Made by a program: the position numbers and the translations under genes
NCBI GenBank assembly: GCA_021773815.1
Contig: JAJFJS010000147.1
Span: 1 to 33,637, forward strand
Length of the DNA stretch: 33,637 nucleotides
From: Gammaproteobacteria bacterium
Lineage (GTDB): Bacteria; Pseudomonadota; Gammaproteobacteria; Steroidobacterales; GCA-2729495
Direction of reading: 5' to 3'
In this document: positions 1,213 to 10,980 of the stretch, one piece after another
Layout of the letters: each line of letters opens with the position of its first letter
Numbering within the stretch: the first letter of the stretch is position 1
Notes under the pieces: model-generated
Seen by the model: the letters and a program-made list of their open reading frames with translations, nothing else
Told to the model about the DNA's origin: nothing
The model's database searches: none

Positions 1213-2088
1213 TTACAGTAGCCCCTTGCCGTCGTGTTCGGCAAGCGGGTCGAGAAAAACGTAGCCGGCATCCTTGATCTTGCGGTTGGACAATGACTTC
1301 GGGCCGGTGCCGTGTCCGACCCAGTTGATCGGTTCGCCCCCAGCGGCGGCCACCATCCGACCAAAGAAATCCGCTTTCGAGTCGCTGATGTCGTTGACGA
1401 GGTTATAGACGCCTGCGAGCCGGTGTTCGAGCGCGAATGCGAGTGCGTTGACGACATCGTCACGATGGATGATCGTCGCCGGCGACGCGCCGTCGAACGG
1501 CACGGTACGGCCGGCCAGCGGCAGCGTCTGGGCGGTCAGTTGGCGTGGCACGAAGCCGATCTGCGGACCGTAAATCGTGCCGGTCCGGAAGACGCAGACC
1601 CGCAGTTGGTCGCCGGCGGCGCCAAACAGAATCGATTCGGTATCCGCATAGACCTGCTGAAACGGGCTGCCCGGCGTGGCCGGCGTGTCTTCGTCGACGT
1701 TGTCGGCCCCGCCCGCGTTGCCGTAGACGCTCCAGGAACCGGTGAAAATCACCTGCGCCAGGTCCGGCGCCGCGTCCAGGCATTCGACCAGGCACCGCGC
1801 CGTGCCGACATAGGTGTCCGTGTACAGGTCGAGATCCATGACGTATTGCCCGTCTTTCTCGACCATGCCGCCGGCGACCGTCAGCAATACGGCCTGCTGG
1901 CCGGCGAGCAGGTCGCGCATCCTGGCGCGGTCGTTACCGCGCATTACGATGACGCGATCCGCTACCGCCTCGAGTTCGGCGACGCGTCGCTCACTCGTCG
2001 TCGTCACGGTGACTGTGTGACCTTCGCCATGCAGATAGCGCGCGGCTTCCATGCCCGTGTAGGCCGCGCCGATAATTGCGATGTTCAT
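1213..2088 (-). CDS. NAD(P)-binding epimerase/dehydratase-like protein (extended SDR, YeeZ-like)
   Basis: A 291-residue Rossmann protein of the extended short-chain dehydrogenase type, likely cytoplasmic. The N-terminus has a beta strand followed by GAAYTGMEAARYL at about residues 7-19, a variant of the GxxGxxG dinucleotide loop. A T/S-rich segment TGSWSVYG matches the SDR catalytic serine strand. The usual YxxxK is replaced by YADTE, so the catalytic Lys is absent, as in YeeZ-like members whose chemistry is not settled. A later IIHRDDVVNAL segment is the typical nucleotide-sugar-epimerase-like substrate region. The start at 2088 is fixed by a strong GGAGGA (complement of 2094-2099). It lies 36 bases after the bilin-reductase-like gene and before the MFS gene, all leftward, suggesting one transcript. 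The substrate is unknown. Confidence 0.75.
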   Translation of the reverse strand: MNIAIIGAAYTGMEAARYLHGEGHTVTVTTTSERRVAELEAVADRVIVMRGNDRARMRDLLAGQQAVLLTVAGGMVEKDGQYVMDLDLYTDTYVGTARCLVECLDAAPDLAQVIFTGSWSVYGNAGGADNVDEDTPATPGSPFQQVYADTESILFGAAGDQLRVCVFRTGTIYGPQIGFVPRQLTAQTLPLAGRTVPFDGASPATIIHRDDVVNALAFALEHRLAGVYNLVNDISDSKADFFGRMVAAAGGEPINWVGHGTGPKSLSNRKIKDAGYVFLDPLAEHDGKGLL

Positions 2089-2124: not shown

Positions 2125-2871
2125 TCAGCTGCGCAGCGCGGTCTTGAAAGTCGACTTGATCTGCCGGCCGATGTCTTCCCCGATCACGCCGTAGACGCCG
2201 TTCCACGCGCGCGGGTCGAGTTCATCGGCAAAAAACAGGTCCAGGTGCCGGCGGTTGCGTTCGCGCATCGCGTCGGCGGCCGGTGCCGGGTATGACAGGC
2301 CGCCGGCGAGTGCCAGATAGTGATCCAGGAACGCGTCGATCCATGGCGCAACGCTCTCCAGTTCGGCGCGCTTCGTCGGCCGGCCGCAGCCGATGCTCCA
2401 CGGCGTCAGGAAGGCGGCAACGGCCGGGTTCGCGGGCGCGAGTGCGCAGACGTTGTTGCGGTCCTTGACGGCTTTCCAGTAGGGCCGGGTCAGCGGTGTG
2501 AACACCTCGGTGTAGTAGGCCGGGTGGTCGACGGGGTCCAGCCGTGACAGGAAATCGGCATTGAACACGCAGGCATCGGGGGCAAACTGCACGACCTGCG
2601 CGTGGAAATGGGGCATCGCGGTGTCGTCACGGCCGAACAGGAAGAACAACTGGGTATCGACCGGTGCGCGGATCAGCCGGAAATGAATCATCCGGTCGAG
2701 CAGGCTGTCGTCTGCGCCGCGCCACAGGCGCAGAAAGCCGGCCTCGATGTCGGGTTCGTCCGCACGGACGAGCGTCCGGCTGGGCCCGCCCGTGGCGGCG
2801 TGCAACTCGACCAGCGAGTGCCGGGCCAGCGTCGTCTCGACCAGTTGATTGATATATTCGTAACCAAACAT
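2125..2871 (-). CDS. Ferredoxin-dependent bilin reductase (PcyA/PebS)-like protein with Asp-to-Gln change
   Basis: A 248-residue protein I align by memory with the ferredoxin-dependent bilin reductase (FDBR) family, which reduces biliverdin without flavin or metal. Residues 72-96 align without gaps to the central strands of PcyA and PebS (hydrophobic run, then MPHFHAQVV where the family has LPxFGxDxv). A segment around 155-185 (LTPW...GRPT...WIDAFLDHY) matches the family's FSxWxxFxRP and following helix. The C-terminus has ELDP (217-220) and a VIGEDIGRQIKSTF helix like the family's DPxRgxxxxxFGExwxexfi. Length fits (about 230-250). The central catalytic Asp is Gln92 here and the PcyA His88 position is Leu75, while the C-terminal Asp (219) is kept. 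ATG 2871 is preferred over TTG 2889 because a candidate promoter sits just upstream. No heme oxygenase or phytochrome gene is in the window. Activity is uncertain. Confidence 0.6.
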   Translation of the reverse strand: MFGYEYINQLVETTLARHSLVELHAATGGPSRTLVRADEPDIEAGFLRLWRGADDSLLDRMIHFRLIRAPVDTQLFFLFGRDDTAMPHFHAQVVQFAPDACVFNADFLSRLDPVDHPAYYTEVFTPLTRPYWKAVKDRNNVCALAPANPAVAAFLTPWSIGCGRPTKRAELESVAPWIDAFLDHYLALAGGLSYPAPAADAMRERNRRHLDLFFADELDPRAWNGVYGVIGEDIGRQIKSTFKTALRS

Positions 2872-2888
2872 AAATATTAATAAAACCA

Positions 2889-2916
2889 ATTATTTAAGGA
2901 TTAAACATGATGTTAA
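2889..2916 (-). promoter_or_regulatory. Candidate sigma70 promoter of the bilin-reductase-like gene
   Basis: On the minus strand TTAACA (complement of 2911-2916) and AATAAT (complement of 2889-2894) are separated by 16 bases, each one mismatch from consensus. Transcription would begin about 10 bases before ATG 2871. The surrounding 70 bases are strikingly AT-rich against a GC-rich background. Confidence 0.45.
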
Positions 2917-3049
2917 TTAGACGCATGTTCCCGCGTTGCTATCCGATAGCCGACACTCTGCCCGAATACTTTCCGCGCCTCGATTGTAGGGTGGCGCCGT
3001 CCATGACGGGTTGTTGCCCGCGGACCTATCCGCTGTGCAAAATGACCGC

Positions 3050-4111
3050 GTGAAAAAGTTGCCAGCCGCCCCACTGACGCTGTCCGGTCGGGTTGCGACC
3101 GGACGCGGGCAGGGCGCCGATTTTACCCGGCTCGAATGGGCGCGGGCGCAGTTTCTGCGCCATAGCGGCATCGAACCGTTCCCCGGCACGCTGAACCTGC
3201 TTCTGGAAACACCGATCGATCACGATGCGTGGCGCGCGTTGCGGTGCCGATCCGGCCATCGGGTCAGCGCACCGACGCCCGATGCCTGCGACGCGCGGCT
3301 GTATCCGGTGCGCATCGCCGATGCGGTCAGCGGGGCGGTCGTCGTGCCGGAGGTCGACGGCTATCCGCCGGATCAGGTCGAAATCATCGCGGCGATCGAT
3401 CTGCGCGTGCATCTCGGTCTCGTCGATGGCGATGCCGTGTGCGTCGCCGAACCGGGCACGCCTGCGCCGCAGGCCGTGATCTTCGATGTCGATGGTACTT
3501 TGCTCAACTCGCTCGACGGTTATTGTCTGGCGGCCGGCCGTGCGACCGAACCGTATGGGTGGCATGTCAGTCTTGATGATGTGCGCCGCGCGCTCGATGC
3601 CAACCAGCCGTTCTGGAATTTTGTCATACCGCCGGACCAGGAGCCTGACGAGCGACTGATTGCCGAGTTGCGGGACGCGACCATGCGTCACTGGCCGGAG
3701 GCGCTGGCCGAGGTCGTCGCGGTGCTGCCCGGTTGCGCAGCTGCGCTGCACCGGTTGCGACAGGCGGGGATGCGACTGGCGATCTTCACCGGGTCGGGCG
3801 GTGAATCTTTTCCGCCGCTGCGTGATGCCGGACTGCTCGACCTGTTCGAGGTCATCGTGACCGGCAACGATGTCGCCGGGCGCAAGCCGGCGCCGGATGG
3901 CCTGCACCTGTGCCTGGAGCGACTCGGGCTCGCGCCCGAACAGGCGGTCTATGTCGGCGATGCCAGCATCGACGTCGCGGCCAGCCGGGCGGCGGGCATG
4001 GCGGCGATTGCCGTGCTGACCGGCGCCGGCAATTCGGCGAGCCTGACTGCGGCCGGCGCGCACCGGATCACGCCGAGCGTGGCGCACCTGCCGGAAATCT
4101 GGTTGTCCTGA
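3050..4111 (+). CDS. Fusion of CTP-dependent riboflavin kinase (DUF120) domain and HAD phosphatase
   Basis: A two-domain protein of 353 residues from GTG 3050; an in-frame TTG at 3011 would add 13. Residues about 10-135 match the archaeal CTP-dependent riboflavin kinase family (RibK, DUF120): a GRGQGADFTRLEW glycine loop (18-30), the hallmark PFPGTLN with Thr47 and Asn49 (Mg/nucleotide ligands in that family), and the C-terminal VEIIAAIDLR...LVDGD strand pair. Residues about 140-350 are a HAD-superfamily phosphatase of the Gph type: motif I FDVDGTL (Asp146, Asp148), motif II FTGSGG (Thr247), motif III Lys279 in GRKPAPDG, and motif IV VGDASID (Asp304, Asp308). All HAD motifs look intact. A kinase making FMN and a phosphatase possibly removing its phosphate in one chain resembles, in logic only, the plant FMN hydrolase/riboflavin kinase. 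Domain calls are firm; substrate is inference. It diverges from the bilin-reductase-like gene and converges on the UbiD gene. Confidence 0.85.
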   Translation: MKKLPAAPLTLSGRVATGRGQGADFTRLEWARAQFLRHSGIEPFPGTLNLLLETPIDHDAWRALRCRSGHRVSAPTPDACDARLYPVRIADAVSGAVVVPEVDGYPPDQVEIIAAIDLRVHLGLVDGDAVCVAEPGTPAPQAVIFDVDGTLLNSLDGYCLAAGRATEPYGWHVSLDDVRRALDANQPFWNFVIPPDQEPDERLIAELRDATMRHWPEALAEVVAVLPGCAAALHRLRQAGMRLAIFTGSGGESFPPLRDAGLLDLFEVIVTGNDVAGRKPAPDGLHLCLERLGLAPEQAVYVGDASIDVAASRAAGMAAIAVLTGAGNSASLTAAGAHRITPSVAHLPEIWLS

Positions 4112-4168
4112 ATCTGTTGTGGGCATCGGCGCCTTGCGATTCACCGCCCGGCGAGCGGGAGCCCCGGA

Positions 4169-5677
4169 TTATTTCTGCCAGTCTCGCCAGTACTCTGGCC
4201 AGCGCGCGGCGACGATTTCGAACGCCTCGGCATGGCGTTGTTCGACAATTTCGCGCGACACCTGCGGCCATTTCTCCGGCCCGCCTTCGGCCGGCCACTG
4301 GCGCGTCGCGTCGATGACCATCTTGCTGGTCAGCCAGCGCGTGGGCGCGCTCGGATCGAGCGGAAAGCCGCGTGTCTGCGGGATCAGCAGCGACGCAGGG
4401 TCGGGCTGCCAGCGCGTACCGAGCGCCTGAAAAATCTGTGTCTTGTCACGCACGTCGATGTCGTGGTCGACGACGATGATTACCTTGGCGAACAGGTCGC
4501 TGGCGGCAATGTACTGTCCGGCCGTCAGGCCCTCACCGGGGAAACGCTTGTTGATACTCAGGATCGCGACGCCCATCGTCTCGATCGGCCGGTAGAACTC
4601 GACGAGATTCGGCAGTGCCTTGCGATACGCGACGTTATTCGCAACGGTCTGCGGCAGGCTCATCGTCAGCTTGGTAATGCCGGCAAAGCAATTGACCACC
4701 CAGGGTTTCCGGCGGTGCGTGATTGCCGTGACGGTCATGAAAAAGTTTTTCGGTTTCGCCAGGCCCATGTAGCCGAAGACTTCGCCGTAGGGTCCTTCGG
4801 CCTCGGTCCCGGTAACCGATATTTCACCCTCGATAACAATCTCGGCATGCGCGGGTACCAGCAGGTCGCTGGTTCGGCATTTGACCAGTTCGACCGGTTT
4901 GCCGCGCAGTCCGCCGGCAATCTGGAGCTCATCTTCGCCCAGCGCGGCCATCTTGGACGTGCCGACCGCAAACGTGATCGGATCTACGCCGATGACGACC
5001 GCAGCCGGCATTGTCTCCTGGCCACGCTTGCGGTAGCTCTGCAGGAAACTCCAGCCGTTCTGTCCGGTCTCCATGTTGACGCCGATCCGGTTGCGACTCT
5101 GGACCTGGCAGCGATACGTTGCGACGTTGCGACCGAGTTCCGGATCCTCGATGAATACGGTGCCCGCGGTGATGTAGGCGCCGGCATCGCCGGGATTCGT
5201 TTGTAGCCACGGGAATGCGCCGAGATCGACGTCGTCGCCGGTCACGACGATTTCCTGGCAGGGCGCGCCCGCGGACGGAGTGACGACCGGTGCAATGCGC
5301 GGCCACTGATCCTGCGCCGCGTACACGGACCGGAGCCGCTCGAAGGCGGTCCGATACATGTCACGTGCCGGCGTATCCTGCGCCACGCCGAAGGCCATCG
5401 CCTCGTTGGCCCAGCCGCCGAACAGATTGCCGAGCACCGGCAGGTCGTGCCAGGCGCCGCCCGTCCGGATGCGCTCGATAACAAACGGCGGGGCTTCGTC
5501 GAAACCAAATTCCTCGACGAGGCGGTAGGCAAATGCCGTCGCCTCATAGCGGTCCTGATCCATGTCGGCGATGCGCAGCAGACCGCCGCGTGCGTCCACC
5601 GCGGCGACATAGTCGCGCAGCGAGTCGAACGGGCCGGTCGTGATCGGATCCGGGCGCGCGGCGGGGTCAGTATGCAT
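4169..5677 (-). CDS. UbiD-family prenylated-FMN-dependent decarboxylase
   Basis: A 502-residue cytoplasmic enzyme of the UbiD/Fdc family, which decarboxylates (or carboxylates) aromatic or alpha,beta-unsaturated acids using prenylated FMN and a divalent metal. Asn184 and Arg189 in NVATYR, and Glu294 and Glu299 in EGPYGE, sit with the same spacing as the Asn168/Arg173 and Glu277/Glu282 active-site residues of Fdc1. Length is as expected for the family. It need not be the ubiquinone enzyme itself: many paralogues act on other acids, and no ubi gene or UbiX flavin prenyltransferase lies nearby. It ends 57 bases from the converging riboflavin kinase-phosphatase gene, so both neighbours concern flavin, though they are not co-transcribed. 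The start ATG 5677 lacks a strong ribosome site. Confidence 0.88.
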   Translation of the reverse strand: MHTDPAARPDPITTGPFDSLRDYVAAVDARGGLLRIADMDQDRYEATAFAYRLVEEFGFDEAPPFVIERIRTGGAWHDLPVLGNLFGGWANEAMAFGVAQDTPARDMYRTAFERLRSVYAAQDQWPRIAPVVTPSAGAPCQEIVVTGDDVDLGAFPWLQTNPGDAGAYITAGTVFIEDPELGRNVATYRCQVQSRNRIGVNMETGQNGWSFLQSYRKRGQETMPAAVVIGVDPITFAVGTSKMAALGEDELQIAGGLRGKPVELVKCRTSDLLVPAHAEIVIEGEISVTGTEAEGPYGEVFGYMGLAKPKNFFMTVTAITHRRKPWVVNCFAGITKLTMSLPQTVANNVAYRKALPNLVEFYRPIETMGVAILSINKRFPGEGLTAGQYIAASDLFAKVIIVVDHDIDVRDKTQIFQALGTRWQPDPASLLIPQTRGFPLDPSAPTRWLTSKMVIDATRQWPAEGGPEKWPQVSREIVEQRHAEAFEIVAARWPEYWRDWQK

Positions 5678-5915: not shown

Positions 5916-7124
5916 TCAGATGACGCCTTCGTCTTTCAGCCGGTCGCGTTCTTCGGCGCTGATGCCCAGCAGCCCACCGAGGATCTCATCGTTGAACGCG
6001 CCGACGGCGGGACCGGGCCAGTCCGTGCGCCCCGGTGTCTCGCTGAATTTGGGGACCATGCCCGGGATCTTCAGTGGCACGCCGTTGACTTCGACCTCTT
6101 CGAACAGGCCGCGGGCCTGAAAATGCGGGTCAACCATCATATCGGCCACGCTGTAAATCGGTCCTGACGGTACGCGCGCCTCTTCGAGCATGGCCAGCGC
6201 CGTAGCCGTGTCGAGGGAACCGGTCCACGCGGTAATCGCCGCATCGATTTCCGGTTCGTGCGCGACGCGTCCGGCATTGTCGGCGAAGCGCGGATCGTCG
6301 CCCATGGCCGGCTGGCCCATCTTGTCGCACAGCCGCTTGAAGATCGAGTCGCCGTTGGCGCCGATGATGATGAACTTGCCGTCGCTGCAGCGGTACGTAT
6401 TGGTCGGCACGATACCGGTCAGCGTCGAACCGGATGGTTCGCGGACGACGCCGCCACCGTCGTATTCGGGCACCACGCCTTCGAGCATGTTGAAAACCGC
6501 CTCGTACAGTGCCGTGTCGATGATCTGGCCGCGACCGGTCGGGTCTTTCATGCGCCGGACCAGCGCCATGACGATGCCGAGCGCCGTGTGCAGACCGGCC
6601 AGCGTATCGCCGAGGCTCAGATTCGGCCGAACCGGCGGGCCGTCCGGAAAACCGTTGACGAAACGCAGTCCGCCGACGCCTTCACAGACCGAGGCAAAAC
6701 CCGGCTTGGATGCATAGGGCCCGGTCTGCCCGTAGCCGGAGATCCGGGCATAGATCAGGCCGGGATTGCTGTCACGGAAAGTGTCCGGGCCGAGGCCCCA
6801 TTTCTCCATGGTGCCGGGCCGGAAGTTTTCGACGACGGCATCGGCCGATTCGATCAACCGGCGCACGATATCCTGACCCGCCTCGGTGCGCAGGTTCGCC
6901 GTGATGCATTTCTTGTTGCGCCCGAGGCTGTGCCACCACCATGACGTGCCTGAACCGTCGAGGACGCGCCATTTGCGAATCGGGTCGCCGTCGCCGGGCG
7001 ACTCGATCTTGATGATCTCGGCGCCGAAATAGCCCAGCACGCTACCGACGAAAGGGCCGGCGAGCAGTTGCCCGACTTCAATGATGCGGAAGCCGTCCAG
7101 GGGACGGGCTTTGGGTTCGTTCAT
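5916..7124 (-). CDS. Class III (CaiB/BaiF) acyl-CoA transferase
   Basis: A 402-residue CoA-transferase of family III, which moves CoA between carboxylic acids through an enzyme-bound aspartyl anhydride. The N-terminus PLDGFRIIEVGQLLAGP and the stretch FGAEIIKIE...GD are hallmarks. NFRPGTMEKWGLG (about 100-112) is the conserved CoA-binding region, and Asp173 in LGDTLAG is the expected nucleophile. TGRGQIIDTALYEA (196-209) is also typical. The longer frame to 7358 is rejected because family homology begins at ATG 7124. Substrate specificity cannot be read; relatives handle oxalate/formate, carnitine, mesaconate and bile or aromatic acids. The gene is leftward, upstream of the UbiD gene by 238 bases and divergent from the lipoprotein gene. 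A joint role with UbiD in acid catabolism is possible but unproven. Confidence 0.9.
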   Translation of the reverse strand: MNEPKARPLDGFRIIEVGQLLAGPFVGSVLGYFGAEIIKIESPGDGDPIRKWRVLDGSGTSWWWHSLGRNKKCITANLRTEAGQDIVRRLIESADAVVENFRPGTMEKWGLGPDTFRDSNPGLIYARISGYGQTGPYASKPGFASVCEGVGGLRFVNGFPDGPPVRPNLSLGDTLAGLHTALGIVMALVRRMKDPTGRGQIIDTALYEAVFNMLEGVVPEYDGGGVVREPSGSTLTGIVPTNTYRCSDGKFIIIGANGDSIFKRLCDKMGQPAMGDDPRFADNAGRVAHEPEIDAAITAWTGSLDTATALAMLEEARVPSGPIYSVADMMVDPHFQARGLFEEVEVNGVPLKIPGMVPKFSETPGRTDWPGPAVGAFNDEILGGLLGISAEERDRLKDEGVI

Positions 7125-7384
7125 AGTGATCGATCCGGTACCGAAAGCGGTCGGGTCAGGGGACCCGCCCGATGGATTTTTTCTGGTGTGGCGATTCCTG
7201 CCTTTGCAGCCAAGTCTAGCCGGAAACACCGGTGCATGACAGGACGCAGCAGCGTTGCGGGCGCGCATCGTAGCCGGCACCGAAATTGACCGCAACCGAT
7301 ACCTGGTTGCGGCGGGGCAGCGGTCGCAACGGACGGGTAAAAGTGTGACCCGGTGCACGGGCGCATCCCGCTCGTCCCGTAATC
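7125..7384. other. Divergent intergenic region between CoA-transferase and lipoprotein genes
   Basis: These 260 bases lie between two divergent starts and should hold both promoters. Two inverted repeats stand out: CGGGTC-AGGG-GACCCG at 7152-7167 with a T6 run at 7177-7182, and the perfect CCGCAACC/GGTTGCGG pair at 7290-7312. No gene is seen, and I cannot identify convincing -35/-10 pairs. Confidence 0.4.
7290..7312. repeat. Perfect 8-bp inverted repeat, candidate operator
   Basis: CCGCAACC at 7290-7297 and GGTTGCGG at 7305-7312 are exact reverse complements around a 7-base spacer. The arrangement suits a dimeric repressor site in the divergent promoter region of the CoA-transferase and lipoprotein genes. 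A further related GCAAC lies just to the right. No regulator gene is adjacent. Confidence 0.4.
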
Positions 7385-8009: not shown

Positions 8010-8876
8010 TCATGGTCCCGCGGCGTACCAGGCGGCCAGCGCAGCGCCGATCTCGTGTGCCGAATCTTCCTGGATGAAATGTATGCCCGGCACCGTGACT
8101 TCCTGCTGATTCGGCCATTGCCGGCAGGTTTCGCGCAGCGCACCGACGAGGATCGCGCCGGGCTCGGCGTTGATGAACAGCTTGCGGACGGGTGACGTGG
8201 CGAGCCAGTCGGCGTAGCGGCCGACGATCTCGACGACATCAGCGGGCTGGCCGTCGATCGGCAGTTCGCGAGGCCAGGTCAGCGTCGGCAGACGATCGTC
8301 GCCCGGCGTCAGGAATGGCGCCCGGTAGGCGTCCATCTCCGCGTCGGTCAGTGTCCGGATGGTCGATCCGGGCAGGATGCGTTCGATAAATACATTCTTG
8401 TCGAGGATTAGCGCCTCGCCGGCATCGGAGCGCAAAGCCTCGAACAGCGGCCGACTCGGTTCCGGCCATTCGTCCCAGCGAATCGGCCGCACGATGGCCT
8501 CCATATACGCAATCCCGGCCACGCGGTCCGGGTGGCGGCACGCCCAGTCGAAGCCGAGCGCCGAACCCCAGTCATGCAGTACGAGCGTTACACGGTCGCC
8601 GATGTCGAGAGCCTCGAGCGCGGCGTCGAGATAGCGCCGGTGGCACGTGAAGCGGTAGCGGTCCGGCTCGTCGGCGTCGAGCTTGTCCGAACCGCCCATG
8701 CCGATCAGATCCGGAGCGATACAGCGGCCATGGTCGGCCAGCTGCGGTAATACATCGCGCCACAGGAACGAAGACGTCGGATTGCCGTGCAGGAACACGA
8801 TGGGGTCGCCACTGCCGGCTTCGCGGTACGCGATGCGCTTGCCGAGCACCGTGACATGCTTGAGTTCGGCAGTCAT
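8010..8876 (-). CDS. Haloalkane dehalogenase, alpha/beta-hydrolase fold
   Basis: A 288-residue cytoplasmic alpha/beta hydrolase that would hydrolyse carbon-halogen bonds of haloalkanes to alcohol and halide. The family signature is complete: HGNPTSS (30-36) with halide-binding Asn32; nucleophile Asp102 in LHDWGS followed by halide-binding Trp103; acid Glu126 in YMEAIVRP; and base His266 in GIHFIQEDS. Asn32/Trp103 with the Glu after strand 6 places it in subfamily II, like DhaA and LinB. Plain esterases and epoxide hydrolases lack this full set. Its ATG overlaps the stop of the upstream P-loop gene by four bases (ATGA at 8873-8876), implying translational coupling. The natural substrate is unknown; many marine and soil bacteria carry such enzymes without known halogenated growth substrates. 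Confidence 0.92.
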   Translation of the reverse strand: MTAELKHVTVLGKRIAYREAGSGDPIVFLHGNPTSSFLWRDVLPQLADHGRCIAPDLIGMGGSDKLDADEPDRYRFTCHRRYLDAALEALDIGDRVTLVLHDWGSALGFDWACRHPDRVAGIAYMEAIVRPIRWDEWPEPSRPLFEALRSDAGEALILDKNVFIERILPGSTIRTLTDAEMDAYRAPFLTPGDDRLPTLTWPRELPIDGQPADVVEIVGRYADWLATSPVRKLFINAEPGAILVGALRETCRQWPNQQEVTVPGIHFIQEDSAHEIGAALAAWYAAGP

Positions 8877-9727
8877 GCGGCGTGCTCGGCCTGGCCGACG
8901 GCGTCGGCGATCATGTTGATGAAATCGGCCTCGCTGTGCACGTCACCGACCAGGCGGGCGTCGATCGTATAGCCGTGTTCGCGCGCCAGCGCCTCATACA
9001 GCGGACGGCGATACTCGAGCAGTTCGGGGAAGATCCATTGGACGAACCGATCCGGTTCGATCTCGTCGGCCGACGTGAGTTGCTCGTTGGCAAGGTATTC
9101 GGCGAGTTTCCGATCGAGGAAGGCCTCATTAAAATACAGCGGCTTGGGGTTACTGACGGCGCGGCGGATCAGTTCGAGTTCCATGTCCGGATCCGCCTTG
9201 AGATATAGGATCAGGGTGTGTCGGCGCAGCGCATCAATCGCCGGTCCCGGCGGCAATTCGCAGATACTCCCGCCGGCATCATTCAGAAAATGATCGTAGC
9301 CGTAGATTTCGTGCGCCTTGTCGATAAACCCGGCGACATCACACATCGCGGCCGATTCGGCCTCCAGGTGCAGCGCCTGGCGCCGCTTGAATTCATTCGT
9401 CGGTAACCCGCCGAGATCGGCGCGGCCGATCTTGCCGAGAAACGTCGACACCGGTTCCAGGTTATGGACGCTGATGTTGTTGGCGATATAAATCGAGTCG
9501 CTGCGCAGCAGGTCCCGCAGGAAATCGACCTGCATGGCCTGACGCTTGACGTTGTCGAGAATCGGCTCGGCCAGGTATTTGGTGCCGATCCGGTAGTCGC
9601 CACTGTAGTGAAACCAGTTGTTCTTCGGCAGCCGGTTGGCCAGGTGCGTCTTGCCGACCCCCGACATGCCCAGCAGCGTGACCGCCTTCTGCGGCCAGGC
9701 GACAAATTCATCGCGCGTCATATGCAT
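8873..9727 (-). CDS. P-loop NTPase of unknown function
   Basis: A 284-residue protein with a clear Walker A motif, GMSGVGKT at residues 20-27, directly after a hydrophobic strand, as in small-molecule kinases and related P-loop proteins. The spacing to HYSGDYRIGTKYL (about 40-52) and the late stretch ILYLKADPDMELELIRR, followed by a charged NPKPLYF segment, resemble the substrate and lid parts of shikimate/gluconate-kinase-like folds, but no known kinase signature is recognised. ATG 9727 and ATG 9721 are both possible starts; neither has a strong ribosome site. It is leftward, directly upstream of and overlapping the haloalkane dehalogenase gene, and preceded by an AT-rich region with two inverted repeats. 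A functional link to the dehalogenase is suggested by coupling only. Confidence 0.75.
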   Translation of the reverse strand: MHMTRDEFVAWPQKAVTLLGMSGVGKTHLANRLPKNNWFHYSGDYRIGTKYLAEPILDNVKRQAMQVDFLRDLLRSDSIYIANNISVHNLEPVSTFLGKIGRADLGGLPTNEFKRRQALHLEAESAAMCDVAGFIDKAHEIYGYDHFLNDAGGSICELPPGPAIDALRRHTLILYLKADPDMELELIRRAVSNPKPLYFNEAFLDRKLAEYLANEQLTSADEIEPDRFVQWIFPELLEYRRPLYEALAREHGYTIDARLVGDVHSEADFINMIADAVGQAEHAA

Positions 9728-9815: not shown

Positions 9816-10823
9816 TTATAACCCGACCAGCCGGCGGTGCAGATCCAGGGCCTCGGTGCTCGGGCGCTGGCTGTCCTCCTTGGGATAGCGCAGCGGCCGG
9901 TTGGCAAGAATCCGATAACTGGTCTCGAGCAATTCGTCGGCAATGACCAGCGTCATCATCCGGGTGTCCACGGCGATCTTGCCGAGATCGAACAGCGTGT
10001 GGATGTCGGCGCGCAACAGCAGGCCATTCGATGAATGGTGGGTGTATTTGCCCCGGTACGGGATGATATACGCCGCCTCCAGGGCATCCGGCGCATTGCA
10101 GCCCGTCACGGCGCAGGTGTAGTCGTAGGCGGCCAGCAGGCTCTGGCGCATTTGCGGATGGCCGCGGCGCTTGGTAATCGTCTCGACGATGCGTTCGCGG
10201 CCGTCCTTGGTACTTTTCGGATCGAAGGCCTGCATTTTGGCCTGTTCGCGCTCGGACAGGCGGATGATGCCGCTCATGTCGAGTACGGGGCCGCCGACAT
10301 TGGTATTGAGCAGGCGGTGCCGGAAGAATCGCTCGACCGTCCCAAAATCGCCCTCGATCCGTTCCATGACCTCATCGGACAACTGGACGAACCGGTCGGC
10401 GGCCGGCGGCAGATAATCGCGGAGTTCGGCAAGCGGCAGCGACAGGGAAATCGGTTCGGACAGGAAGAACAACAGTTCGCGGGCGCTCGAGTCCGCGTCG
10501 GATCCGCCCCAGATTGCCGCCGCGGCGCGCTGGTTTTCGTAGCGTCCGAGCACCTTGCCGTAGTATCGGTACGCACCGTCGAACGTCACGAGGACGAAGT
10601 CGCCGATGCCCATGTGAAACCAATTTTCGACGAAGGCCGGTTCGGTCGGGTAGCCCCAGGCGAAGAAGCCCCGCCCGCGACGCTCGATGTCGATCAGTTC
10701 CGGGTAGGTCGCATCGCTGAACGACTTGATGACGGCCTGGCGCTCGACCGGATTGATGATCGATCGCTCCAGACACGCTTTATCGGTCGCGGTATTGGCG
10801 GCGGCGATGAAGATTTTCGGCAT
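9816..10823 (-). CDS. PUA-like/HNH endonuclease-family protein with first catalytic His replaced by Tyr
   Basis: A 335-residue protein. Residues about 55-135 (GIGDFVLVTFDGAYRYYGKV, then NQRAAAAIWG) look like a PUA/EVE-like base-reading domain as found in modification-dependent restriction enzymes. Residues about 225-285 form an HNH_2-type domain: YDYTCAVTGC, then ALEAAYIIPY, SNGLLLRADIHTLFD. In this family the middle motif is normally AAHIIPY; here the codon at 10068-10070 is TAT, giving Tyr252, while Asn266 and His275 of the H-N-H triad remain. The start is set at ATG 10823, with GGGAG ten bases upstream and a promoter behind it; the longer frame to 10964 has no such support. It is divergent from thrA. 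Likely a type IV-like defence nuclease or an inactive derivative. Confidence 0.75.
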   Translation of the reverse strand: MPKIFIAAANTATDKACLERSIINPVERQAVIKSFSDATYPELIDIERRGRGFFAWGYPTEPAFVENWFHMGIGDFVLVTFDGAYRYYGKVLGRYENQRAAAAIWGGSDADSSARELLFFLSEPISLSLPLAELRDYLPPAADRFVQLSDEVMERIEGDFGTVERFFRHRLLNTNVGGPVLDMSGIIRLSEREQAKMQAFDPKSTKDGRERIVETITKRRGHPQMRQSLLAAYDYTCAVTGCNAPDALEAAYIIPYRGKYTHHSSNGLLLRADIHTLFDLGKIAVDTRMMTLVIADELLETSYRILANRPLRYPKEDSQRPSTEALDLHRRLVGL

Positions 10824-10851
10824 GCGTCTGGGTCTCCCGAAGCGCACGGGG

Positions 10852-10880
10852 ATTATTGATAGTCGTCCGGACTTTTGCAA
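10852..10880 (-). promoter_or_regulatory. Candidate promoter of the HNH gene
   Basis: On the minus strand TTGCAA (10875-10880) and AATAAT (complement of 10852-10857) are spaced by 17 bases. The start of transcription would fall about 20 bases before ATG 10823, leaving room for the GGGAG ribosome site. Confidence 0.5.
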
Positions 10881-10889
10881 CGCCGGCAC

Positions 10890-10918
10890 CTGTCCGGGCG
10901 CGTCAGAACGGGTATGAT
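10890..10918 (+). promoter_or_regulatory. Candidate thrA promoter
   Basis: TATGAT at 10913-10918 is a good -10 element; a weak -35 (CTGTCC, 10890-10895) lies 17 bases upstream. Transcription would start near 10925, before both candidate thrA start codons. I see no leader peptide rich in Thr or Ile codons, so thrL-type attenuation is not apparent. Confidence 0.4.
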
Positions 10919-10980
10919 AAGCGGCTTTGCCGGGCAGCGACATGGTGTTGTGGCTCGCTCTCAAACGGTTGGCGTTGCAG

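Follow-up and report, generated by a model that had tools for sequence, protein, structure and literature searches.

Described riboflavin kinases of the PF01982 (DUF120) family include the archaeal enzymes RibK (MJ0056 of M. jannaschii) and RbkR, the latter reported to be both regulator and enzyme and to have an HTH domain that MJ0056 lacks (PMC8305020). The protein described here shares with them the PF01982 domain and its conserved glycine, PGT-x-N and glutamate positions, but it is bacterial, fused to a HAD phosphatase domain and encoded beside a UbiD gene in a genome that also carries RibF. A kinase of the same family (38% identity) occurs in the phenylphosphate carboxylase operon of Azoarcus sp. 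KH32C as part of a UbiX-DUF120-NUDIX trio. As in the fusion, the kinase there comes with a partner that removes phosphate; the setting is a UbiD/UbiX operon, the genes are separate and NUDIX takes the place of HAD. In plants, AtFMN/FHy combines a kinase of the ATP/RFK family, which is unrelated to DUF120, with a phosphatase of the HAD type. It resembles the present protein in holding riboflavin kinase and phosphatase in one chain (PMC9678776) and, unlike it, has no UbiD context. Compared by their described activities, AstI, AstK and the HAD domain of AsDMS are a further parallel, as HADs that remove phosphates from (cyclised) prenyl diphosphates, one of them in fused form; these differ in that they serve terpene biosynthesis in a fungus and in a marine bacterium.

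Activation of phenol and other aromatics is among the reactions of UbiD enzymes that depend on prenylated FMN (prFMN), and these enzymes find use in making chemicals. UbiX is reported to require reduced FMN plus either dimethylallyl monophosphate (DMAP) or dimethylallyl diphosphate (DMAPP) (PMC6541611), and the origin of its FMN and DMAP is described mainly from E. coli, with NUDIX enzymes and ThiM (PMC12359138). Riboflavin plus prenol has been fed to E. coli to raise prFMN (PMC10807440), and such feeding reportedly inhibited one benzene-degrading culture (PMC8446749). A natural enzyme supplying FMN, DMAP or both would, if the function considered below is right, offer a direct handle on prFMN supply, and an archaeal-type kinase would gain a defined role in bacteria that already have RibF. 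In the titles and opening parts of abstracts of the open-licence literature we found no paper that links this kinase family to UbiD or UbiX or that describes the fusion.

One reading frame with a kinase and a HAD domain

The window, i.e., the whole stretch of 33,637 nucleotides analysed, carries the fused gene on its plus strand:

3050..4111, plus strand: fused gene, DUF120/CTP-dependent riboflavin kinase plus HAD phosphatase, 353 aa from GTG 3050
3092..3445, plus strand: CTP-dependent riboflavin kinase domain (PF01982), with the PGTLN motif and the glutamate of VEIIA retained
3464..4108, plus strand: HAD phosphatase domain (HAD_2), motifs I-IV intact

The frame is open throughout 3011..4111 (plus strand), with no internal stop and with in-frame starts at TTG 3011 and GTG 3050; a minus-strand open frame at 3026..4144 overlaps it. 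Numbered from GTG 3050, Pfam places the CTP-dep_RFKase domain PF01982 at residues 15-132 (84.2 bits, E 9e-24; positions 1-119 of the 121 of the profile, curated cut-off 25 bits) and HAD_2 (PF13419) at residues 143-322 (E 1.2e-29). The first-pass annotation, made from the letters alone, had proposed a single uninterrupted frame with an N-terminal DUF120 kinase and a C-terminal HAD domain, and both the frame and the domain assignment are borne out. A frameshift across two genes, as well as a chimera or a chance arrangement, is excluded, since the same two-domain frame recurs in 17 other bacterial genomes, including the single-contig genomes G812 and G830. The fusion thus stands as a genuine two-domain enzyme family, conserved in some bacteria and present in at least one haloarchaeon.

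Searched against the PDB, the N-terminal half matched three distinct sequences at E values up to 1, namely two of M. jannaschii RibK MJ0056 (2p3m, E 4.7e-10, 42.7 bits) and 3cta, which is named riboflavin kinase (E 5.3e-6). The claimed RibK hallmarks (Gly-x-Gly, PGT-x-N and the glutamate) proved invariant: the positions of MJ0056 Gly9, Gly14, Gly16, Phe21, Gly36, Gly42, Thr43, Asn45, Pro96, Glu107 and Arg115 are kept in all 26 non-divergent bacterial copies. We take Thr43 and Asn45 of MJ0056 to bind metal and Glu107 to lie near the phosphate-accepting hydroxyl. The NCBIfam riboflavin kinase equivalogs, which were presumably built for archaeal forms, match below their cut-offs (NF010762, 58.4 vs 279 bits; NF040694, 54.4 vs 168 bits), and the plant-type RFK/Flavokinase family PF01687 gave no match in the fusion protein at E 0.1. 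We consider it somewhat more likely than not that the N-terminal domain supplies FMN.

The HAD motif residues of the window protein are D146, D148, T247, K279, D304 and D308. Among 23 HAD domains of sufficient length, five of these are kept in every one and position 247 holds Thr in 22 copies, with Ser in the remaining one, so that all four motifs noted earlier are indeed present in the window protein and maintained in its relatives. With catalytic positions conserved in kinase and HAD alike, neither domain shows signs of being dead. The features of HAD class IA (DxD, Thr/Ser, Lys, GDxxxD and a helical cap) are all found. An AlphaFold2 model, built from the window protein and 27 HAD relatives, shows the HAD half with confidence, its blocks mostly at pLDDT >90, and places helices at 154-238 between motifs I and II. 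Structure prediction, suggested earlier as a check, therefore succeeded for this half but not for the kinase half (residues 1-130), which reached a pLDDT of 28-48 in this model, whose alignment added HAD relatives only. The best 50 structural matches of the HAD model are all HAD proteins, at Z 21.4-24.9; those listed include the alnumycin P phosphatase AlnB, phosphoglycolate phosphatases and an inorganic pyrophosphatase. As the matches spread over HAD proteins within this range, the fold does not fix the substrate. The HAD equivalogs likewise stay below cut-off (best PGP_bact, 108.5 vs 180 bits), and only the broad subfamily HAD-SF-IA-v3 exceeds it among the best 25 of 40 profile matches. Overall, the domain resembles many phosphatases about equally in both sequence and fold.

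Distribution and domain orders

The kinase family, described in the first-pass annotation as mostly archaeal, is rare but real in bacteria. Counting the window's genome each time, PF01982 exceeds its cut-off in 7 of 369 genomes of the class (one more falls below it), 2 of 398 in a draw from the phylum, 5 of 97 from the order and 17 of 40 from the window's family; 6 of 8 genomes from the order of G357 also carry it. The resulting bacterial set comprises 28 loci, one of them from a plasmid of Azoarcus sp. KH32C. A locus at 19.4 bits, below the family cut-off (L081 in G216), was dropped from the counts, and five haloarchaeal plasmid copies were counted apart.

The order DUF120-HAD accounts for 18 of the 28 loci, 17 from the window's family (window included) and one from another family (G120). 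The suggested survey of this architecture thus recovered it in 17 other bacterial genomes, 16 of them from the window's family. The reverse order, HAD-DUF120, occurs at six loci of a different family (G357, G262, G150, G839, G840 and G841). Stand-alone DUF120 genes are found at two loci (G014 and Azoarcus), and the remaining two (G180 and G487) hold divergent PF01982 domains. At one locus (L113), the HAD part is cut off by the contig end. A search for viral counterparts returned one short, weak match (L125), and a viral origin was rejected on this basis. In the loci drawn from the genome-contig scan we found HAD domains only and no DUF120.

In a tree of HAD domains each domain order forms its own clade, and a single origin is not rejected (p-AU 0.41). 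This tree drew on 50 of 66 loci, namely those whose match spanned roughly 150 residues or more, and it is biased because the outside HADs were retrieved by means of patterns derived from the window protein. Most of the DUF120 tree is unresolved, and neither tree includes the haloarchaeal copies.

The two divergent copies, L080 and L094, were set apart to leave the 26 bacterial copies used throughout. At L080 (6045-7634, minus strand) a divergent PF01982 domain shares one frame with a glycosyltransferase and has GSLN in place of PGTLN. L094 (9261-9815, plus strand) encodes a second divergent PF01982 protein of 184 aa, also with GSLN, that groups with L080 in the tree. The genomes of both lack UbiD. 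L080 may represent a further branch within the kinase family.

Association with UbiD, UbiX and NUDIX genes

The fusion lies in a syntenic block of the window's family that consists of a CoA-transferase, UbiD, the fusion, a conserved protein and an epimerase. In the window its neighbours are:

4169..5677, minus strand: UbiD family decarboxylase (PF01977, E 9.5e-61; TIGR00148, 274 bits, cut-off 245)
5916..7358, minus strand: class III CoA-transferase, kept in the family's syntenic block
2125..2889, minus strand: conserved protein flanking the fusion on the opposite side, with no Pfam family above cut-off
1213..2088, minus strand: NAD-dependent epimerase/dehydratase family protein, member of the block

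UbiD is convergent with the fusion and lies 57 bp downstream of it; its orthologues (61-66% identity) adjoin the fusion in seven other loci. The conserved protein at 2125..2889 is found in nine block loci, window included, and is kept in G368, where the syntenic UbiD (61% identity) is retained and DUF120-HAD is absent, the aligned ends of this UbiD and the conserved protein being 21 bp apart. The converse occurs as well: at L090 of G812 an 82-residue C-terminal remnant of UbiD (8525-8773, plus strand) lies 27 bp from an intact fusion, so that UbiD decayed there while DUF120-HAD stayed, and in G861 and G783 the fusion is retained without the block UbiD. Fusion and neighbouring UbiD therefore do not strictly co-occur (G368, G812). 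Nor does UbiD require the DUF120 gene, since six members of the family without DUF120 carry 3-10 UbiD matches each (5-12 in five DUF120-positive members).

Across the bacterial copies, UbiD lies less than 1 kb from the DUF120 gene in 14 of 26, a count that corresponds to roughly three independent events because the copies of the window's family share one ancestral block. Four further copies, including that of G812, have UbiD at 5.5-7.9 kb, and in the stretches examined around the other eight no UbiD was found. The UbiD-linked lineages, about three in number, are the window's family, the genus of G357, G840 and G841, and the stand-alone copies. In that genus UbiD stands directly upstream of HAD-DUF120 on the same strand, with gaps of 31-106 bp. 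The UbiDs that adjoin DUF120 genes belong to divergent subfamilies with about 30% identity. Full UbiD coordinates were available for 13 genomes that carry DUF120. UbiD occurred within 2.5 kb in seven of them, as compared with 0.15 expected from UbiD number and genome size without correction for relatedness, and none of 200,000 simulations reached seven. The UbiD link is correlative.

The stand-alone copies, the most informative of the set, extend this association to UbiX and NUDIX in operons of the phenylphosphate-carboxylase type. As annotated, the Azoarcus operon begins with two PEP-utilising/PEP-binding genes and a CBS protein and continues with ppcB, ppcD, ppcA, ppcG, ubiD, ubiX, DUF120 and a NUDIX hydrolase, with an overlap of 4 bases where ubiX meets DUF120 and 19 bases where DUF120 meets NUDIX. 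G014 has UbiD, HAD, UbiD, UbiD, DUF120 and NUDIX in this order, with UbiX 3.3 kb further on, and the NUDIX proteins of the two loci are 49% identical. UbiX and NUDIX matches were confined to these two among the 28 bacterial loci; the stretches examined around the 24 fused copies gave no UbiX match. The kinase thus occurs with a phosphate-removing partner in three arrangements, with a C-terminal HAD, an N-terminal HAD or a NUDIX neighbour.

Flavin genes in the window's genome

The window's genome is 98.95% complete and has RibF, as a single PF01687 flavokinase match (E 2.8e-39) on contig C87, which is not the contig of the fusion. The fused kinase is therefore an extra one, and general flavin levels need not depend on it. 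The genome further holds six UbiD matches and one UbiX-type flavoprotein, which aligns over 189 residues with the UbiX from the Azoarcus operon at 57% identity. At the column of AnUbiX Q203, Azoarcus and G014 have Gln and the window's genome has His. Gln at this site is reported for a DMAPP-specific UbiX and His for one accepting both substrates, and the residue is described as not the sole determinant (PMC6541611). Since Gln or His fits DMAPP at least as well as DMAP, DMAP is possibly unneeded by these enzymes. Among the 20 window proteins scanned there is no other rib gene. A tRNA was the only Rfam match in the window at gathering scores, and control by an FMN riboswitch was accordingly rejected.

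Copies on haloarchaeal plasmids

The fusion, seen initially as a bacterial feature, is real in bacteria but not confined to them. A 1.6 Mb plasmid of Natrinema gelatinilyticum encodes DUF120-HAD in one frame of 307 residues (L129, 11995-12918, plus strand), unannotated in its record, with PF01982 (E 4.4e-15) and HAD_2 (E 2.3e-18) both above their cut-offs. It has the domain order of the window protein, with which it shares 27.6% identity over 341 columns; it differs in being archaeal, in having a nitroreductase gene 85 bp upstream and in its distance from UbiD, the nearest of four matches on the plasmid lying 13.5 kb away.

Another four kinase copies on haloarchaeal plasmids lack a HAD fusion. 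Three of them have ribB as their immediate or next-but-one neighbour (L131, 9995-10408; L132, 9689-10405; L133, 9761-10417; all plus strand), and two of these kinase genes overlap it; near the fourth no ribB is annotated. An LLM class flavin-dependent oxidoreductase is annotated near three of the four, L131 and L132 included. UbiD is absent from three of the four plasmids, with one match above cut-off on the other. As ribB adjoins three of the four, a flavin substrate for the accessory copies is supported, and these genes are perhaps a local FMN supply for catabolic flavoenzymes. Overall, the haloarchaeal copies support local FMN supply in general and are neutral to weak evidence for a connection with UbiD.

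Possible functions of the fusion

The reading that we tentatively favour is that the fusion serves as a bifunctional feeder for the prFMN cofactor of UbiD-type (de)carboxylases. The two domains with their conserved residues, the RibF present in addition, the UbiX and six UbiD matches and the repeated neighbourhood are the observations behind it; both substrates, the use of CTP and the delivery to UbiX are what we infer. The N-terminal domain would use CTP to phosphorylate riboflavin, so that FMN forms without the FAD-synthetase step to which bacterial RibF normally couples it. The HAD domain would then strip the outer phosphate from DMAPP to leave DMAP, UbiX, encoded elsewhere in the genome, would join FMN and DMAP, and UbiD would use the product. 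Next to the stand-alone copies, the NUDIX partner would supply DMAP as the HAD domain would in the fusions. Points against this reading are the relatives in which UbiD and the fusion occur apart, the UbiX residue pattern, the distance between the haloarchaeal fusion and UbiD, and a HAD domain about equally similar to many phosphatases.

Precedents exist for the second activity. In E. coli, conversion of DMAPP to DMAP as a prFMN precursor is reportedly carried out by the NUDIX enzymes NudB, F, I and J (PMC12359138, citing Wang et al. 2018). Among HAD enzymes, AstI is reported to take a prenyl diphosphate to the monophosphate and to stop there (PMC5024094), and the HAD domain of AsDMS, fused to a terpene cyclase, is described as dephosphorylating stepwise; against the comparison, the latter is reported to be inactive on farnesyl diphosphate itself and to proceed to the alcohol (PMC12365925). 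One UbiD-like pair has been reported to work with FMN alone (PMC7500099), and for such an enzyme the kinase half would be needed and the HAD half not. The full form of this proposal, in which one enzyme makes FMN (with CTP) as well as DMAP, the activities are joined in three ways and a dedicated prFMN feeder pathway exists apart from RibF and the housekeeping RibK in bacteria and perhaps some haloarchaea, seems to us doubtful; the Natrinema fusion slightly lowered our estimate for one enzyme making both UbiX substrates.

The function first proposed for this gene was control of flavin levels, the kinase making FMN and the HAD domain hydrolysing it to riboflavin, as a convergent counterpart of AtFMN/FHy, which unites riboflavin kinase and FMN hydrolase (PMC9678776). 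Catalytic positions kept in both domains would suit such an enzyme, as would the absence of UbiD within 12 kb of the haloarchaeal fusion, and FMN phosphatase activity is also ascribed to the majority of HAD enzymes in the riboflavin pathway (PMC13028884). However, the UbiD/UbiX neighbourhood would be left unexplained, and RibF is present in the genome. NUDIX enzymes cleave diphosphates and FMN is a monophosphate, so those beside the two stand-alone copies are not expected to hydrolyse it. Of the earlier proposal, the two domains are real, while convergence with plants appears unlikely, as the tracking with UbiD and UbiX, the NUDIX partner and RibF point elsewhere. Instead of supplying DMAP, the fusion might help the riboflavin pathway, with HAD dephosphorylating ArPP, a precursor of riboflavin, and the kinase phosphorylating the riboflavin that results, so that overall FMN output increases, possibly still for prFMN. 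HAD enzymes catalyse the ArPP step in plants and microbes, but two enzymes separate it from the riboflavin step, so that the two are not adjacent (PMC13028884). On the haloarchaeal plasmids ribB adjoins three of four accessory copies, as such a helper would predict, whereas the window holds neither a second rib gene among the 20 proteins scanned nor an Rfam match besides the tRNA, and the NUDIX partner finds no explanation; we regard this as very unlikely.

Two other possibilities concern what the domains act on. The modest match to the archaeal enzymes (42.7 bits to MJ0056) and a RibF that already makes FMN would be consistent with a kinase that has moved to another alcohol, such as prenol, yielding DMAP directly, or an intermediate of aromatic pathways, with the HAD domain as an editing phosphatase. 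Since divergent PF01982 copies (L080 and L094, one of them fused to a glycosyltransferase) occur in two UbiD-less genomes, the family may indeed hold several substrates; yet the Gly-x-Gly, PGT-x-N and Glu positions are invariant in 26 of 26 copies, and a changed substrate is in our view quite unlikely. Alternatively, the HAD or NUDIX partner could clear a by-product or a faulty phosphate formed by the kinase/UbiX pair, e.g., a misprenylated flavin or pyrophosphate. UbiX that uses DMAPP releases pyrophosphate as its leaving group (PMC6541611), and an inorganic pyrophosphatase from Bacteroides is among the near structural and sequence neighbours of the HAD domain. This likeness is not specific, because many other activities in the same HAD subclass score similarly, and damage control is the most improbable of the functions considered here. 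The favoured function, supply of prFMN in place of flavin-level control, is put forward as a tentative shift.

Further genes of the window

Beyond the CoA-transferase, three more genes on the minus strand extend the neighbourhood. A conserved P-loop-like protein with no Pfam family above cut-off (8873-9727) occurs in 14 block loci, window included. At 9816-10964 lies an HNH endonuclease gene with a weak match to a model of phosphorothioated-DNA restriction endonucleases (41.9 bits, cut-off 180). Near the UbiD and CoA-transferase genes, the gene at 8010-8876 gives a strong haloalkane dehalogenase match (425.9 bits, cut-off 241).
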